From: Dysgonamonadaceae bacterium
GTDB taxonomy: Bacteria > Bacteroidota > Bacteroidia > Bacteroidales > Azobacteroidaceae
Length of the DNA stretch: 17,343 nucleotides
Direction of reading: 5' to 3'
Assembly: GCA_031260235.1 (NCBI GenBank)
Contig: JAIRKG010000004.1
Coordinates: 1-17,343 of the forward strand
This document shows, in pieces, positions 3,169 through 10,890 of this stretch. The notes beneath the pieces are model-generated. The model had not been told where the DNA came from. It made no database searches and was given only the letters and a program-made list of their open reading frames with translations. Numbering within the stretch: the stretch's first letter is position 1; every line of letters starts with the position of its first letter. The position numbers and the translations under genes were made by a program.

Positions 3169-3738
3169 ATGAAGATTGGAGTATTGGCTTTGCAGGGTGG
3201 ATTTGCGGAACACATCTGCCGCCTGCAAACGCTTGGGGCAGACGCTTTCGAGATTCGGAAACAGTCGGATTTGGCGCAGCCGATGGACGGACTGATTATC
3301 CCGGGCGGCGAAAGTACCGTCATCGGGAAGTTACTAAAAGATCTGGCTATCTACGACGATTTGAAAAAGAAGATTGATAGCGGCTTACCGGTATTCGGCA
3401 CTTGCGCCGGCATGATTTTGCTGGCACGGGAAATCGCCGGAACGAAAACTGCCTGTTTCGGTTCAATCGACATTGCCGTGAAACGGAACGCCTATGGCAG
3501 GCAATTAGGCAGTTTTTTTACGGAAGCGGAAATGAAAGGTGTCGGCATCGTCCCGATGACTTTCATTCGTGCGCCTTACATCGAAACGATGGGCGCGGGG
3601 GTGGAGGTGTTGTCCGTTGTAGAGGGGCACATCGTTGCCGCCCGTGAAAAAAATGTGCTGGTTACCTCCTTTCATCCGGAATTGACTTCCGACAATCGGG
3701 TGCACCGGTATTTTTTGGAGAGGATTATCAAATCCTGA
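3169..3738 (+). CDS. pdxT: Pyridoxal 5'-phosphate synthase glutaminase subunit PdxT
   Basis: 189 residues, the normal PdxT length. This class I glutamine amidotransferase hydrolyses glutamine and passes ammonia to PdxS for vitamin B6 synthesis. The family opening [15 protein letters not shown] is present, as are GGEST (46-50), the nucleophile elbow FGTCAGM with Cys79, and the His169/Glu171 pair in TSFHPEL. The ATG at 3169 is chosen because it begins exactly at the conserved N-terminus; an in-frame ATG at 3151 would add six residues (MAPLID). The gene lies 22 bases after floA and probably belongs to the same operon. The usual partner pdxS is not in this window. The last 70 or so bases recur, degraded, ahead of the second ilvC copy. 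Confidence 0.95.
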
Positions 3739-3751
3739 AAAAATTCCGTTA

Positions 3752-3787: not shown

Positions 3788-3840
3788 AAAAAGAATATAA
3801 ACTAATTATAAACATTCACTTAATTAAAAAGTAAAAATCT

Positions 3841-4887
3841 ATGGCAACAATTAATTTCGGCGGCATAAACGAACAAGTCGTTACCCGCGAAGAATTTCCA
3901 CTGGAAAAAGCAAGAGAGTTTTTAAAAGACGAAACAATCGCCGTGATTGGATACGGTGTGCAGGGTCCCGGTCAGTCTTTAAATTTGCGCGACAACGGTT
4001 TCAATGTAATCGTTGGTCAGCGCAAAGGCGGCAAAACCTGGGACAAAGCCGTTGCCGACGGATGGGTTCCCGGCAAAACGCTTTTTGAAATCGAAGAGGC
4101 TGCAAAACGGGGAACAATTATCCAGTATCTGCTTTCCGACGCGGCGCAAATCGAAGTATGGCCCCGCATCAAACCTCACCTCACAGCAGGCAAGGCATTG
4201 TATTTCTCTCACGGTTTCGGGATTACCTACAAAGAACGGACAGGCATCATTCCCCCTGCCGACATTGATGTGATTCTGGTCGCCCCGAAAGGCTCCGGAA
4301 CTTCCCTGCGCCGGATGTTCCTGCAAGGCAGAGGACTAAATTCAAGTTATGCCGTTTTTCAGGACGCTACCGGAAAGGCAAAGGAAAGAACGATTGCTTT
4401 GGGCATTGGCGTCGGGTCGGGATACCTGTTTGAAACCGACTTCAAACGCGAAGTTTATTCCGACCTGACCGGCGAACGCGGCACCCTGATGGGCGCTATA
4501 CAGGGTATCTTGCTCGCGCAGTATGAAACGTTGCGCGAAAACGGACATTCGCCTTCGGAAGCCTTCAATGAAACGGTGGAAGAATTGACGCAATCGCTGG
4601 GTCCTCTGTTCGCTGAAAACGGCATGGACTGGATGTATGCCAACTGTTCGACAACCGCGCAGCGCGGCGCTCTGGACTGGATGAAGCCCTTCCGCGATGC
4701 GACCAAACCGGTTTTTGAAAAACTGTACAGAGAAGTCGCAAATGGAAACGAGGCGCAACGGTCTATCGACGCCAATTCCAAACCTGACTATCGCGAAGGC
4801 TTGGAACGCGAACTGAAAGCGTTGCGCGAAAGCGAAATGTGGCAAACGGGCGCTGTTGTCCGCAAATTGAGGCCGGAAAACAATTAA
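3841..4887 (+). CDS. ilvC: Ketol-acid reductoisomerase (NADP+), first and probably active copy
   Basis: 348 residues, the typical Bacteroidota IlvC length. It converts acetolactate or acetohydroxybutyrate to the dihydroxy acid in valine, leucine and isoleucine synthesis, using NADPH and Mg2+. The Rossmann motif is IGYGVQGPGQ (36-45), with the cofactor-phosphate loop around GQRKGGKTW (59-67). Active-site residues expected for class I enzymes are present: His124 (FSHGFG), Lys150 (APKGSG), Asp208 and Glu212 (SDLTGE), Glu244 and Glu248 (NETVEE), Ser270 (CSTT). It stands apart from ilvD, ilvB and ilvN, which often accompany ilvC in this phylum and are not seen here. It starts 102 bases after pdxT, with a hairpin repeat in the gap and no clear promoter, so read-through from the upstream operon is possible. 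A diverged copy follows in tandem. Confidence 0.97.
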   Translation: MATINFGGINEQVVTREEFPLEKAREFLKDETIAVIGYGVQGPGQSLNLRDNGFNVIVGQRKGGKTWDKAVADGWVPGKTLFEIEEAAKRGTIIQYLLSDAAQIEVWPRIKPHLTAGKALYFSHGFGITYKERTGIIPPADIDVILVAPKGSGTSLRRMFLQGRGLNSSYAVFQDATGKAKERTIALGIGVGSGYLFETDFKREVYSDLTGERGTLMGAIQGILLAQYETLRENGHSPSEAFNETVEELTQSLGPLFAENGMDWMYANCSTTAQRGALDWMKPFRDATKPVFEKLYREVANGNEAQRSIDANSKPDYREGLERELKALRESEMWQTGAVVRKLRPENN

Positions 4888-5000
4888 TTTTGTACTCAGT
4901 TCCCTGTATATTCCAAGACACTGATTGTTCTTGCCAACGAGTTTGCATAGAAGCCGGTATAAGATGCTCTCAAATCGTCGGTCGTACTTCCTTTAGAGGT

Positions 5001-5072: not shown

Positions 5073-5115
5073 AGAATATTAAAATGCAAACAATAATAAG
5101 TGAAAAGTAAAATCT

Positions 5116-6162
5116 ATGGCAACAATTAATTTTGGCGGAGTTGAAGAACAAATTATTACCCGCGACGAATTTCCAATGCTTGAAGCACAAAAAGTTTTAC
5201 AAGATGAAGTAATCGCTATAATTGGTTACGGCATACAAGGTCCGGGACAAGCCAGGAATCTGCGCGACAATCTGTTCAATGTAATCATCGGACAGCGTAA
5301 AAATAGCCCGACTTGGGGTAAAGCAATCGGCCACGCTTGGTTTCCCGGTCGGAGGCTTTATGAAATCGAAGAAGCCGTCCGGCGCGCGACATTTATCGTG
5401 TATCTGCTTTCCGATGCGGCGCAAGTCGAAGTATGGCCCCGCATCAAACCTTACCTGACGTCATGCAAGACGCTTTGTTTCTCTCACGGCTTGGGGCTTG
5501 CTTACAGGGACAGGACAGGCATCATTCCCCCTGACGACATTGATGTGATTATGGTTGCACCGCAAGGCCCCGGAATTTCCCTGCGCCGGATGTTCATGCA
5601 AGGTAAAGGAATAAATTCGAGTTTCGCCGTTTATCAGGACTTCACCCACAAAGCGAAGCAAAAGGCGATTGCCTATGGCATCGGCATCGGTTCGTCCAAT
5701 CTGTTTGAAACCACTTTCAAACGCGAAGCGTTTTCCAATTTGACCGGCGAACGCGGCACGCTAATGGGCGCTATACAGGGCATCTTGCTCGCACAGTATG
5801 AAACGTTGCGCGAATACGGGCATCCGCCTTCGGAAGCTTTCAACGAAACGGTGGAAGAGCTGACGCAATCTCTGATGCCGTTATTTGCCGAAAAAGGAAT
5901 GGACTGGATGTTCGCTAACTGTTCGACAACCGCACAGCGCGGTGCTTTGGACTGGATGAAGCACTTCCACGACCTGAACAAACCGCTTTTTGATAAACTG
6001 TACAGGAAAGTTGTCCTCGGCGAAGAAGCGGAGCGAGCAATCGAAGCTAATTCCAAACCCGACTATCGCGATGCTTTGGATCTCGAACTGAAAGCATTGC
6101 GCGAAAGCGAAATGTGGCAAACAGGTGCTATGATCCGCAAGTTGCGTCCGGAAAACAGTTGA
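5116..6162 (+). CDS. IlvC paralogue with substituted catalytic residues, possible pseudoenzyme
   Basis: 348 residues, collinear with the first copy without gaps; my hand count gives about 253 identical positions (73%). The dinucleotide motif IGYGIQGPGQ, His124, Glu212, Glu244, Glu248 and Ser270 are kept. Two residues that are nearly invariant in ketol-acid reductoisomerases are changed: Lys150 is Gln (APQGPG instead of APKGSG) and the Mg-ligand Asp208 is Asn (SNLTGE instead of SDLTGE). The cofactor loop also differs (GQRKNSPTW). Residues 211-280 are about 93% identical to copy 1, while 1-200 are about two-thirds identical. The frame is intact, so it is not a simple decaying pseudogene. Normal KARI activity is doubtful; a structural or regulatory partner of IlvC, or a new activity, are possibilities. 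It probably shares a transcript with its neighbours, since no promoter is evident. Confidence 0.9.
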   Translation: MATINFGGVEEQIITRDEFPMLEAQKVLQDEVIAIIGYGIQGPGQARNLRDNLFNVIIGQRKNSPTWGKAIGHAWFPGRRLYEIEEAVRRATFIVYLLSDAAQVEVWPRIKPYLTSCKTLCFSHGLGLAYRDRTGIIPPDDIDVIMVAPQGPGISLRRMFMQGKGINSSFAVYQDFTHKAKQKAIAYGIGIGSSNLFETTFKREAFSNLTGERGTLMGAIQGILLAQYETLREYGHPPSEAFNETVEELTQSLMPLFAEKGMDWMFANCSTTAQRGALDWMKHFHDLNKPLFDKLYRKVVLGEEAERAIEANSKPDYRDALDLELKALRESEMWQTGAMIRKLRPENS

Positions 6163-6206
6163 TTTTGTACTCAGTTTCCTAATCATTATTAATTATTTAA
6201 ATAGTT

Positions 6207-6821
6207 ATGACAAAAAAAGTTTTATTAAAACCGGCAATTTTCGCCGTATTCGGTTTAACGGTATTATTGTGTATAAGTTTCGCTGGTTGTAAAACCGACG
6301 ACGAAATCATTGGGTACGCCAGCCGCCTGCGCACGGCGCGAGAAACTCTCCAAGACAGCATCGTTTTATCCGCCCACGCCACGATGAATGGAACCAACCT
6401 GACTAAACTCGAACGTGGATGTCCGGTTAAGTTCTATTTCTCGTGGATAAACGGCGATACGGTGAACCTGCAAATCCGTGATTTCCACGTGGGGAAAATG
6501 CCGCTCAGCCTCTCGTTTTCAATCAACCTGAAGTTTATGGATTTGAACGACTGGGACAAAGACGAATACACCGGCTCCGGCTGGATAAAATTTGTGGGCG
6601 ACGGCGGAGTAAGCACGATGAGTGGCACCGAAAGAGACGGAAACGGAATCGTAACCGGCTATTTCAATGCCAACACAAAGGAAATAGAGTTTGTAACCGA
6701 TTTCAATGTTGCGTCCGTTACGCTTGACGTCTATCAGCAGTCGATAGATTTTGGTCGCATGGCTAACTACAACGATGAACTCGCCGAATATGAAAGCGCC
6801 CTTGCCGCATTAGGACAATAG
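6207..6821 (+). CDS. Putative lipoprotein of the haem-uptake operon (DUF4903-like)
   Basis: 204 residues. The lipoprotein signal has a lysine-rich start, hydrophobic core IFAVFGLTVLLCISF and lipobox FAGC with Cys28 as the lipidated residue. The mature part is mostly beta with a hydrophilic, glycine-rich middle (WIKFVGDGGVSTMSGTERDG) and a C-terminal helix (YNDELAEYESALAALGQ). I tentatively relate it to the DUF4903 lipoproteins of Bacteroidales; that is from memory and not proven by a motif. The gene is followed after 51 bases by a HmuR-like receptor and then hmuY, so it probably encodes an accessory surface lipoprotein for haem capture or receptor function. The start ATG at 6207 has an A/T-rich leader and begins directly with the signal peptide. 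Confidence 0.75.
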   Translation: MTKKVLLKPAIFAVFGLTVLLCISFAGCKTDDEIIGYASRLRTARETLQDSIVLSAHATMNGTNLTKLERGCPVKFYFSWINGDTVNLQIRDFHVGKMPLSLSFSINLKFMDLNDWDKDEYTGSGWIKFVGDGGVSTMSGTERDGNGIVTGYFNANTKEIEFVTDFNVASVTLDVYQQSIDFGRMANYNDELAEYESALAALGQ

Positions 6822-6862
6822 TTACAAGTCGGCTTCGTGGCTATTTACTATTCACTTGTAAC
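6821..6862 (+). repeat. Inverted repeat in the lipoprotein-hmuR gap
   Basis: GTTACAAGT (6821-6829) and ACTTGTAAC (6854-6862) are perfect 9-base inverted arms around a 24-base loop. The left arm begins at the last base of the lipoprotein stop codon, and the right arm ends 10 bases before the hmuR start at 6873. CTATTTACT is also directly repeated (6841-6849 and 6862-6870). The RNA hairpin would occupy nearly the whole intercistronic gap and could tune hmuR expression. No U-run follows, so it is not a standard terminator. Confidence 0.6.
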
Positions 6863-6872
6863 TATTTACTCA

Positions 6873-8948
6873 ATGTCAAAAAGGACAAAACTACTTGCCT
6901 GTTTATGCGCAACGCTCGCCGCGCCGCTGGCAGCAATAGAAAAAGACACTGTAAATCTCTCCGAAGTGATTGTAATTGCTCCGCGAACGCCGCGCCCCGT
7001 CAAACTTTCGCCTATTCTGACGCGGGTACTCGGTGGCAAAGCGATGCTTGACGCGGGACATGCCGACCTGCAACAAGTCCTGGAGCAGGAAACACCCGGG
7101 CTGAATATCCGCAAAACCGGCTTCGGCAACGAAATCAACGTGCAGGGACTCGACGCCCGGCACGTTCTTTTTTTGATTGACGGCGAGCGTATGACCGGCG
7201 ATATGGCGGGCAACCTCGACTACGAACGTTTTAACCTTCATGCCATCGACCGAATTGAAATTGTGAAAGGTGCAGGCAGCGCGCTTTACGGTTCGCGGGC
7301 TTCCGGCGCCGTTATCAACCTGATTACGAAGAAACCCTCGCAGCCGCTCGCGGTGGACGCAGGCCTGCGATACGCGCAAATGAACGAGCGCAACTATCCA
7401 GACCCGCACAAAAAAGATTTCCTGTATATGTATGAGAAAAACGCCGACCGCCCCAACCGGCAAAGTTGGGCGTCAGTCGGGGTGAAAACCGGGGCATTTG
7501 CTTCGCAAACCGACGTGTGGTATGCCGAAAGCGACGCTTTTAACCTTTACCAAAAGGCGGGTGACAAAAAAGTATATACCCGCGAGGCCAATCCCTTTCT
7601 GGACAGCGACGTTGAAATTGTTAGCGAACTGGCGCGCCCGCCAATGGGCGTTGATGGCGGAGAACATATTTCCGCTTCGCAAAAACTGTTTTTCGAGCCT
7701 TCGGCAAACCTGAAAATGCAACTCTACGCTACCTCTTTCTTCAAGAATACTTACGATATGGTGCAAGACTTGGTTTTTACGCAGTCGCGGGATTTTACCG
7801 GCGGCGCAAAAGTTACTTACGACCTGAAAACCCGCCTCAGCCTGACCGCCGCCGTCCATGCCGACCGTTACAATCGCTACAAACGGCACGAGCGGCGAGA
7901 CGAGCGAAAAACCGTATATAAAAGCCGCATCCTGCAACACCGCTTTGCTCTGACCGGTCGCTATTTCAGCGGACACGACCTGACACTTGGCATGGAATAC
8001 TTTACAGACGAATTGACCAGCGACCGTTTCGTGAACCGCAAAATGACTTCGCGGGCGCTCAAGGAAACCGAATATTTTTTTCAGGACGAATGGACGGCGG
8101 GCGAAAAATGGGCGCTGACGGCGGGCATCCACAGCCTTTTTTCAAAGCCGTTCGGATGGATGTGGGCGCCCAAGTTGGCGGTGAAATACTCGCCTGCCGA
8201 GCAATGGAGTTTCCGCGCGGTCTTCTCGTCCGGATACCGCTTGCCGTCTATAAAAGAACTGTTTTTTAATTGGAGTCATTTAGCCATGTTCGTGATTAAG
8301 GGCAACGAATTTCTGCGTCCGGAAACGAACCGCTATGTTTCGCTCGGCGCGGAATATTCGGACAGCAGGCTGTTTGTCAACGCCAACTTTTACGGCAACT
8401 TCTTTCGCGACAAGATAGAAGGCGTGTGGCGGATATACGATATGCAGTACAACTTTGAATATACCAATCTCGGATGGCAAAACCTGCGGGGCGTCGAAGC
8501 GGTGGCGCGGTGGCAGGCTTCGGATTACTTCACATTGAATGTTTCGTATGCTTATGTTGATGTCGGCGAACCGGGCGGCGTGCGCATCAACACCGCTTCG
8601 CCTCACGCGGCGACGGGCGGCGCGGAATACCGCTATTGCCGGAAAAACGGTACGTTCGCCGCCGGTTTCTCCGCTTCATACATGGGGCGCAAACGTTTCG
8701 ACGTGCAAGACCGCGTCTATGTGGAAAAGGAAGGACGAAGCCGCGACGCCTGGTTCCGGTGCGACCTGCCTGCCTACACGCTCTGCAACCTCACCCTGTC
8801 GCAAACCTTTTACAAACTGAAAATAACGGCGGGGATAAACAACCTGTTCAATTATAAACCGGCAACGCTGGGATCGGGGCTGACGGCGTTTAGCGTTCCG
8901 GCTACTGCGGGGGCGCGGGGGTATATCCAATTTACAGTTAAGAACTAA
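6873..8948 (+). CDS. HmuR-like TonB-dependent haem receptor
   Basis: 691 residues, the normal size for an outer-membrane haem/haemoglobin receptor. Signal peptide MSKRTKLLACLCATLAAPLAA, then a likely TonB box near DTVNLSEVIV. The plug domain (about 45-150) includes LEQETPGLNIRKTG, INVQGLDARHVLFLIDGERM and IEIVKGAGSALYGSRASGAV, all family hallmarks. A long beta-barrel ends in aromatic-rich strands (GYIQFTVKN). The haem-receptor motifs are altered: FRAP appears as YRLP (455-458) and NPNL as NEFL (478-481, followed by RPETN). The downstream hmuY-like gene, 5 bases away, supports a role in haem import. An upstream in-frame ATG at 6837 is rejected because it would add residues ahead of the signal peptide. 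The gene is visibly GC-richer than pnp or tpiA. Confidence 0.9.
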   Translation: MSKRTKLLACLCATLAAPLAAIEKDTVNLSEVIVIAPRTPRPVKLSPILTRVLGGKAMLDAGHADLQQVLEQETPGLNIRKTGFGNEINVQGLDARHVLFLIDGERMTGDMAGNLDYERFNLHAIDRIEIVKGAGSALYGSRASGAVINLITKKPSQPLAVDAGLRYAQMNERNYPDPHKKDFLYMYEKNADRPNRQSWASVGVKTGAFASQTDVWYAESDAFNLYQKAGDKKVYTREANPFLDSDVEIVSELARPPMGVDGGEHISASQKLFFEPSANLKMQLYATSFFKNTYDMVQDLVFTQSRDFTGGAKVTYDLKTRLSLTAAVHADRYNRYKRHERRDERKTVYKSRILQHRFALTGRYFSGHDLTLGMEYFTDELTSDRFVNRKMTSRALKETEYFFQDEWTAGEKWALTAGIHSLFSKPFGWMWAPKLAVKYSPAEQWSFRAVFSSGYRLPSIKELFFNWSHLAMFVIKGNEFLRPETNRYVSLGAEYSDSRLFVNANFYGNFFRDKIEGVWRIYDMQYNFEYTNLGWQNLRGVEAVARWQASDYFTLNVSYAYVDVGEPGGVRINTASPHAATGGAEYRYCRKNGTFAAGFSASYMGRKRFDVQDRVYVEKEGRSRDAWFRCDLPAYTLCNLTLSQTFYKLKITAGINNLFNYKPATLGSGLTAFSVPATAGARGYIQFTVKN

Positions 8949-8953
8949 GAGCA

Positions 8954-9664
8954 ATGAAACACTCGTCAATTATCTATTACTTGCTTGCATTGCTGGGGGC
9001 AGTTTCCTGTGTGGAATACGACGCGGAACCTTTCACTGGAAAAATCATGCCCCGCGCTACGGGTTACAGTTCCGGTGTAACCGACGACTGGATTTATTTC
9101 AACCTGCACACGGGGGAGGTTTTTAATAAATACATGCCCAATGAAGATATTCGGGAAGGAGAACAATTCAACCGCACGGATTGGGATTTGGCTTTCTGCG
9201 GCTATCACATGCGCACCAACAGCGGCACGAGCGGTTGCGGGCAGGGCGGCGCAATCGACCTGGGTTACGGCGATTACGACCGGTGGAAAACCGTCGCACA
9301 ACTCCCAACGAATGCCGAATGGATAACGGATACCGATACGGATGTGTACATTACTTATTCGCAAAGCGACTGGTATCGCCATCTGCTGGAAAACCACATG
9401 AATGTCGAAGATAACCCCTGGTTTGACCCCAACAGCGGACCGGCGCGCAAACTCACCAGCGCCAACCGCAAATTGGAAGAATCAATGTCGCTCGCCGGTC
9501 CCCCGATGTCCTACACGCCGTCGTATCACACCTACGTCGTGCGTACTGCCGATGGACTGCGATATTTTAAGCTGCAGGTTGTCAACTGGTACAACGTTCA
9601 TTCCGAAATTGACGCGACCGGCGGTGAGTTGAGTTATTATTGCGATGAGTTGAATGGTATTTAG
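8954..9664 (+). CDS. HmuY-like haem-binding lipoprotein (haemophore)
   Basis: 236 residues with a lipoprotein signal (MKHSSIIYYLLALLGAVSC, Cys19). HmuY-family signatures are clear: WIYFNLHTGEV (46-56), then DWDLAFCGYHMRTNSGTSG (76-94) running into a glycine-rich GQGGAID, and a late strand VVRTADGLRYFKLQVVNWYN. HmuY proteins capture haem at the surface and hand it to the HmuR receptor; the receptor gene lies directly upstream with a 5-base gap, suggesting translational coupling. In P. gingivalis HmuY two histidines bind haem. Here the region around the second (SMSLAGPPM, 177-185) has methionines (178, 185) and no histidine, suggesting Met ligation as described for several HmuY homologues. The first ligand cannot be placed by eye. 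The gene closes the operon. Confidence 0.88.
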   Translation: MKHSSIIYYLLALLGAVSCVEYDAEPFTGKIMPRATGYSSGVTDDWIYFNLHTGEVFNKYMPNEDIREGEQFNRTDWDLAFCGYHMRTNSGTSGCGQGGAIDLGYGDYDRWKTVAQLPTNAEWITDTDTDVYITYSQSDWYRHLLENHMNVEDNPWFDPNSGPARKLTSANRKLEESMSLAGPPMSYTPSYHTYVVRTADGLRYFKLQVVNWYNVHSEIDATGGELSYYCDELNGI

Positions 9665-10386: not shown

Positions 10387-10890
10387 TCAGTTAATCTTCA
10401 CAAGATGTTGTTTCAAATGATCCGGAACATCGGCAAGGTCGATAATCTTCAATTCCCTGTCCGAAGATGTTTCCGTCTTAACTAATGTTTCATTCAGATA
10501 TTCCGTATCAATTTTCCACATGGCGCCTGTTGCGGGGTCGATTATTAACATTCCGATCAATCCGCCGATCAGAATATTCCCAAAATACCAGCCATCAATA
10601 TCGGCGTCAATGAATACGGTTTTATCGGCATACCCCGCTTTGGAAAACTTTACCAGGTATTCCGCTCTCGAGAAAAATCCCGCGCTTGCTTTCATCTTCA
10701 CGCTTGTTGGCGTAATCCCTGTATAAACTTCCCTGCCGTGTTTATCAACAATACTGATATTTGCACCCTGAGGGTTGCTGTTAATGTGTACCGGATAGGT
10801 CGACCGCGTAACGATTGTTGCGCAGCTTGAAAATAAAACCGGTGCGCAGATAACTGCGACTAACATAATCGTCAAATTTTTTTTGTTCAT
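10387..10890 (-). CDS. Small lipoprotein with a PEGA-like domain
   Basis: 167 residues. N-terminal lipoprotein signal: MNKKNLTIMLVAVICAPVLF, then lipobox FSSC with Cys23. The following segment (about 32-100) resembles PEGA-type surface domains: VHINSNPQGANISIVDKHGR, then YTGITPTSVKMKA, ending in a YLVKFSKAGY strand. A hydrophobic Gly/Ile stretch (YFGNILIGGLIGMLIIDPATGAMW) with the D-P-x-T-G-A-M-W motif is typical of small Bacteroidota and proteobacterial lipoproteins of unknown function. The C-terminal tail is charged. It lies downstream of pnp on the same strand, but a terminator intervenes, so it probably has its own promoter; none is clear. The leader carries a near-duplicated A/T-rich stretch (10891-10915). 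Role unknown; probably envelope-anchored. Confidence 0.8.
   Translation of the reverse strand: MNKKNLTIMLVAVICAPVLFSSCATIVTRSTYPVHINSNPQGANISIVDKHGREVYTGITPTSVKMKASAGFFSRAEYLVKFSKAGYADKTVFIDADIDGWYFGNILIGGLIGMLIIDPATGAMWKIDTEYLNETLVKTETSSDRELKIIDLADVPDHLKQHLVKIN

Follow-up and report, generated by a model that had tools for sequence, protein, structure and literature searches.

An ilvC gene and a diverged second copy of it stand in tandem on a single contig (C54) of 17,343 bases, the whole of which is the window analysed here. The second copy (W2) is probably a retained paralogue of ketol-acid reductoisomerase (KARI; IlvC) that is dead as an isomerase while its fold is still selected. As alignment with the rest of the family confirms, this unusual paralogue lacks two catalytic residues of KARIs, the active-site lysine and the aspartate that bridges the Mg ions. 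The genome is a 1.41 Mb draft in 158 contigs, estimated to be 75% complete, and everything said here of W2 comes from the sequence of that one draft. The features referred to, including the upstream copy (W1), are collected in Table 1.

Table 1. Features of the tandem ilvC region (window coordinates)
Feature	Position	Strand	Basis
W1, upstream ilvC, normal; catalytic residues checked are present	3841..4887	+	
W2, second ilvC copy, paralogue with Gln150 and Asn208, 348 amino acids	5116..6162	+	ORF, alignments, profile matches
W2 codon 150, CAA (Gln); AAA (Lys) in W1, G016, G019 and G031	5563..5565	+	codon comparison
W2 codon 208, AAT (Asn); W1, G016, G019 and G031 have GAC for the bridging Mg ligand, Asp	5737..5739	+	
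W2 codons 201-280, knotted core; Glu212, Glu244, Glu248 and Ser270 kept; slowest part of W2, dN/dS 0.14	5716..5955	+	
pdxT, upstream neighbour of ilvC in the window as well as in G016, G019, G031 and G034	3172..3738	+	
pdxT 3′-end remnant in the spacer between the ilvC copies; matches 3707-3744, 82% identity	5040..5077	+	
18-base tail 3′ of W1, recurring 3′ of W2	4888..4905	+	
W2 copy of the W1 tail, 17/18 bases equal	6163..6180	+	
W2 leader, matching W1 leader 3821-3840	5097..5115	+	

Origin and distribution of the second copy

Both genes encode 348 amino acids and, as the first-pass annotation had it, they align without a gap over that length (73.0% amino acid identity, 78.4% nucleotide identity). 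With 225 nucleotide differences between the copies, W2 is too unlike W1 to be a sequencing error of it. W2 runs from its ATG to its stop codon with neither an internal stop nor a frameshift, again as claimed. By profile it is a KARI, with both Pfam domains (KARI_N, 146.1 bits; KARI_C, 124.1 bits) and the curated NCBIfam model TIGR00465 (301.4 bits) above their cut-offs of 20.6, 29.1 and 226.15 bits, and no gene of the draft genome other than these two copies matches the KARI C-terminal family. Other genes of the pathway, ilvD and ilvB, are present. The four predicted promoter and two predicted terminator matches around the two ilvC copies are inside the range given by shuffled sequence. Downstream of W2, at 6207-9664, are a DUF4903 gene, a TonB receptor gene and an HmuY gene, none of which was found by tblastn at the ilvC locus of the relative G016; there, about 1.8 kb lie between ilvC and a gene matching the window ORF at 10387-10890.

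The sequences directly 5′ of the two ATGs are near-identical, and the 18 bases directly 3′ of the W1 stop have two matches in the window, where 0.03 would be expected with three or fewer mismatches allowed. The spacer holds a 38-base remnant of pdxT (score 48; the best of 200 shuffles scored 37). Because leader and tail are common to both copies and a scrap of pdxT lies between them, the duplication is, on this sequence evidence, a tandem one that took in the end of pdxT and, after it, ilvC. The 31 loci compared, several of them with short flanks, include four genomes that share the gene order pdxT-ilvC. In G016 (L073) about 630 bases separate pdxT and ilvC, compared with about 100 in the window, and blastn matches the last few bases only.

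By sequence comparison W2 is a young, local duplicate. Third codon positions set it at much the same distance (0.25-0.28) from W1 and from the ilvC genes of G016, G019 and G031, and at a larger one (0.41) from G008. Its exact placement differs among the methods: the codon model favours a place beside W1 over three others by at least 7.8 log units, a third-position tree joins it to G019 and G031 (support 83) and in an amino acid tree it branches basally to these relatives, a position taken as long-branch attraction. That the second copy was created in assembly or binning is scarcely credible. The fragmented and incomplete draft leaves some room for it, as does a same-genus genome, G029, whose second ilvC groups with genes of other families; against it, the two copies share a contig, their leaders and tails match and the pdxT scrap stands between them, a layout that a chimera would hardly yield, and third positions place W2 nearer W1, G016, G019 and G031 than G008.

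A W2-like copy was found nowhere else in 45 genomes of the family or 393 sampled from the order (its own genome counted), an absence that is not proof, since assemblies may break at tandem copies and many of these genomes are drafts with parts missing. KARI matches at E ≤1e-60 occur in 142 of the 393 order genomes, with two at that threshold only in the genome of the window. (In six genomes of the order sample, G054, G066, G179, G183, G223 and G352, a single in-frame stop interrupts an otherwise full-length KARI match.) Among the closest relatives, one ilvC each is listed for G016 and for G019, and one full gene with a contig-end piece for G031. For G016, relaxed tblastn for the remnant of a lost second copy gave nothing beyond ilvC itself better than E 0.23.

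Within the family, second matches or fragments are listed for G024, G029 and G031, and all are nearer W1 than W2. The G031 fragment equals the end of that genome's own ilvC at 262 of 273 bases and is followed by similar DNA, so that strain variation at a single locus is the likelier explanation; the overlapping ilvC 3′ ends are on contigs C27 and C23 (L065, L060). G029 has two full-length ilvC genes, on contigs C113 and C53 (L063, L064). The second was considered as a counterpart of W2 and rejected on its grouping in the amino acid tree, by which it appears to be contamination or a transfer. The contig-end pieces of G020 (one) and G024 (two) were likewise dismissed as second copies of the W2 kind, all being nearer W1.

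Active-site residues lost and kept

Alignment with E. coli IlvC puts Lys155 opposite Gln150 of W2 and Asp217 opposite Asn208, bearing out the two substitutions that had been called from the window; the change from GAC to AAT at codon 208 took two nucleotide changes. E. coli His132, Glu213 and Glu221 correspond to the conserved His124, Glu204 and Glu212. W2 also keeps Glu244, Glu248 and Ser270.

The alignment behind the conservation counts holds 62 other sequences: W1, 39 from family and order genomes (five of them fragments) and 22 named loci from genome contigs. Position 150 is lysine in 59/59 and position 208 aspartate in 60/60 of the homologues that cover the column, the rows lacking it (three and two, respectively) being contig-end fragments. 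A further 21 of 21 order loci retain both residues, along with His124, Glu204, Glu244, Glu248 and Ser270. The totals, W1 included, are therefore 80/80 for the lysine and 81/81 for the aspartate, and W2 alone deviates. The near-invariance asserted in the first-pass annotation thus holds, and the proposed search of related genomes for the same pair found neither change in any other KARI compared. In solved structures (three aligned of 37 matched) the two sites are Lys and Asp. At columns at least 98% conserved in the remaining sequences, W2 departs at 10 of 139 and W1 at none, and by this comparison the departures of W2 are not chance.

How such sites are built is known from the class I enzyme of Sulfolobus acidocaldarius (Sac-KARI), in which D191 and E195 bind Mg(I) and D191, E227 and E231 bind Mg(II), D191 bridging both ions (PMC5940873). 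The site is shared: one monomer supplies E227 and E231, the other supplies D191, and the knot domains intertwine in the dimer (PMC5940873). The same four metal residues are described for a methanogen KARI (PMC8615647). By spacing and conservation, Asn208 of W2 is at the D191 position and Glu244 and Glu248 are at those of E227 and E231. Activity of a fungal IlvC is described as significantly reduced by D260K and E264A (PMC8471054), residues matched here to Asp208 and Glu212 by their spacing; the fungal replacement, Asp to Lys, is harsher than the Asp to Asn of W2. In the open literature no mutagenesis study of E. coli IlvC Lys155 or Asp217 was found, and for S. pneumoniae IlvC mutants there was no such paper among the matches listed.

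From the known metal chemistry of the family, it is likely that W2 has lost isomerase activity: the Mg-bridging Asp and active-site Lys are absent, though Glu212, Glu244 and Glu248 are in place. It is very unlikely that W2 is instead a working but slower KARI in which compensating changes let Gln150 and Asn208 support catalysis. In its favour, all six of the other residues followed here are kept and the NCBIfam cut-off for ilvC is passed; against this stand the lack of either change in every other KARI compared and the lowered activity of the fungal enzyme when the presumed equivalent Asp becomes Lys (PMC8471054).

The AlphaFold2 model of W2, from a 30-sequence alignment, is confident (pLDDT 87.3, pTM 0.83). 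All of the 50 PDB matches listed for it are KARIs, with whole-chain TM-scores (query) of 0.59-0.70 and rmsd of 14-19. Because rmsd is high and TM-scores are in that range, the domains of the modelled monomer probably have a different relative position.

Selection on the second copy

When amino acid changes are polarised by G016, G019 and G031, 85 are private to W2 and one to W1, with nine unresolved (G016 has three, G019 one and G031 one). A custom codon model of the Goldman-Yang type was applied to six sequences. On the best topology dN/dS is 0.43 for W2 against a background of 0.026 (LRT 133.9), and it is below 1 (LRT 15.5). With W2 beside (W1,G016) or (G019,G031) it is 0.54, and the LRTs against 1 are 9.2 and 9.0. 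Placing W2 at the base of the four-species clade gives 0.71, indistinguishable from 1 (LRT 1.3), with a fit that is worse by 7.8 log units. A mixture of sites, in which 51% of codons are constrained as in the relatives and 49% are neutral, beats a single dN/dS by 6.6 log units. Positive selection on W2 was considered and discarded, as the free class has a dN/dS of 1.19 and gains only 0.13 log units over 1.

A redundant copy on its way out, dead by missense and perhaps tolerated as a half-active heterodimer, would also have a raised dN/dS. That W2 is such a copy is decidedly unlikely, though about 49% of its codons evolve at the neutral rate, G016 and G019 have one ilvC each (G031 one full gene and the contig-end piece) and the basal topology does not set its dN/dS apart from 1. 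A two-phase model, in which function gives way to neutral decay, has no better fit than one with a constant rate and needs about 177 neutral substitutions. It predicts 23.5 amino acid changes in codons 201-280, where eight are seen, and none of 5000 simulations, with W1 as the ancestor, gave as few; by this test function followed by neutral decay is rejected on the best topology, the only one on which the two-phase and regional tests were run. After 150 or 200 random substitutions a stop-free frame is left in 0.8% and 0.35% of runs, respectively (2000 runs each). Also against decay, D208N required two nucleotide changes and the pdxT scrap that was duplicated along with the gene is recognisable over 38 bases only.

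The marks of a pseudogene, unconstrained evolution with stops and frameshifts, are thus not those of W2, whose frame is intact and for which two-phase decay is rejected (best topology). Of the marks of a pseudoenzyme, family-conserved catalytic residues are lost, and the fold is under purifying selection on the best topology, though not significantly so on the basal one. Because dN/dS is below 1 and two-phase decay is rejected on the best topology, the fold of W2 would, if that topology holds, have been under selection for much of its history. The suggestion that W2 is retained, not decaying, gains support on that topology from its intact frame, a dN/dS below 1 in the proposed comparison with relatives, and the unevenness of its changes, the basal topology being indistinguishable from 1.

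Codons 201-280 have a lower dN/dS (0.14) than the remainder (0.555; LRT 19.5, best topology), which hinted at a specially kept dimer interface. That idea was dropped when a control for the family's own pattern removed the effect for change counts: eight of the 85 changes in W2 fall there, compared with 47 of 592 in the family background (p 0.67), so there is no relative depletion. The counts of family-invariant sites broken, 3/66 within the region and 25/137 outside it (p 0.008), disagree with the change counts. The data are read as indicating a kept fold and not specifically a kept partner interface. The C-terminal knot is kept, as had been said, but by change counts only in the proportion seen in active KARIs.

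Candidate roles and known systems

The preferred reading, held tentatively and with a little less than even confidence, is that W2 acts through W1:W2 heterodimers that adjust how much W1 activity there is, how stable it is or how it is regulated. Lacking the Mg-bridging Asp and the active-site Lys, W2 would be expected to carry out no Mg-dependent alkyl shift. In a class I dimer each site combines the Asp side of one subunit with the Glu227/Glu231 pair of the other, and it is the Lys/Asp part that W2 has lost and the other part (Glu244, Glu248, Ser270) that it keeps. A W2 homodimer would miss the bridging ligand in both sites and be dead. Since class I active sites are shared between subunits and W2 keeps the Glu/Glu/Ser part, a half-dead heterodimer is expected, with one complete site (Lys/Asp/Glu of W1 with Glu/Glu/Ser of W2) and one dead. 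The more specific proposal of a bacterial pro-enzyme system, in which an IlvC pseudo-subunit completes one of two shared sites to give a half-site enzyme whose output or regulation is unlike that of the homodimer, is doubtful.

The main rival to the heterodimer is that W2 is a reductase with another job, the NADPH reduction of a 2-keto acid (ketopantoate, 2-ketoisovalerate) or of some other small molecule, and this is somewhat unlikely. The W2 model and Pfam match retain the NADPH-binding domain, and in the alignment the W2 residues opposite Arg68 and Ser78 of E. coli IlvC are Arg61 and Thr66. Many of the changes in W2 are in residues 71-200, where 18 of 63 family-invariant sites are broken. 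E. coli KARI mutants without isomerase but with reductase activity were reportedly obtained (Tyagi 2005), in favour of this rival; against it, the reductase step of KARIs also uses the Mg site. KARIs are promiscuous reductases: the ilvC of Buchnera is described as replacing panE (PMC4306246), and the paralogues in Streptomyces as differing in the substrates they use after divergence (PMC4353338). In this genome the obvious opening is already taken: a panE homologue scores above the curated cut-off in the genome, so W2 as a replacement for a missing panE was set aside. A further point against this rival is that no class of sites has a dN/dS clearly above 1 (the class at 1.19 being the highest).

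Known dead paralogues that act as partners are mostly eukaryotic. In the open-licence literature no paper with both 'ketol-acid reductoisomerase' and 'pseudoenzyme' was found. If the heterodimer reading is true, W1 and W2 would be a young bacterial case of a dead partner, in a core pathway, with the intact parent adjoining and sites shared between subunits, and would allow a direct test of how a duplicated gene for an inactive subunit comes to be retained.

W2 shares with class I KARIs (IlvC; TIGR00465, PF07991 and PF01450) its length, fold, NADPH-binding and knotted domains and most active-site residues, and it is a duplicate of the adjoining ilvC; it differs in being without the active-site Lys and Mg-bridging Asp. 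The Streptomyces paralogues and the panE-replacing Buchnera ilvC resemble it as KARIs with a changed or additional role in reduction (PMC4353338, PMC4306246). Compared by description, they differ in that loss of catalytic residues is not reported in the parts of those papers available, and the W2 genome has its panE homologue.

As a candidate pseudoenzyme partner of W1, a class predicted for it from class I dimer architecture, W2 is closest to two dead paralogues of trypanosomes, which are described as oligomerising with their partner enzymes and thereby activating them about 1000-fold (PMC5201418). Like the AdoMetDC prozyme and the deoxyhypusine synthase paralogue there, W2 is a duplicate with catalytic residues lost, fold kept and a potential to form heterodimers, and plant PDX1.2 is likewise described as a dead paralogue that oligomerises with the active enzyme (PMC6829848). 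Unlike these, W2 is bacterial, young, in tandem and found in one genome, its partnership is predicted, and W1 looks fully competent alone.
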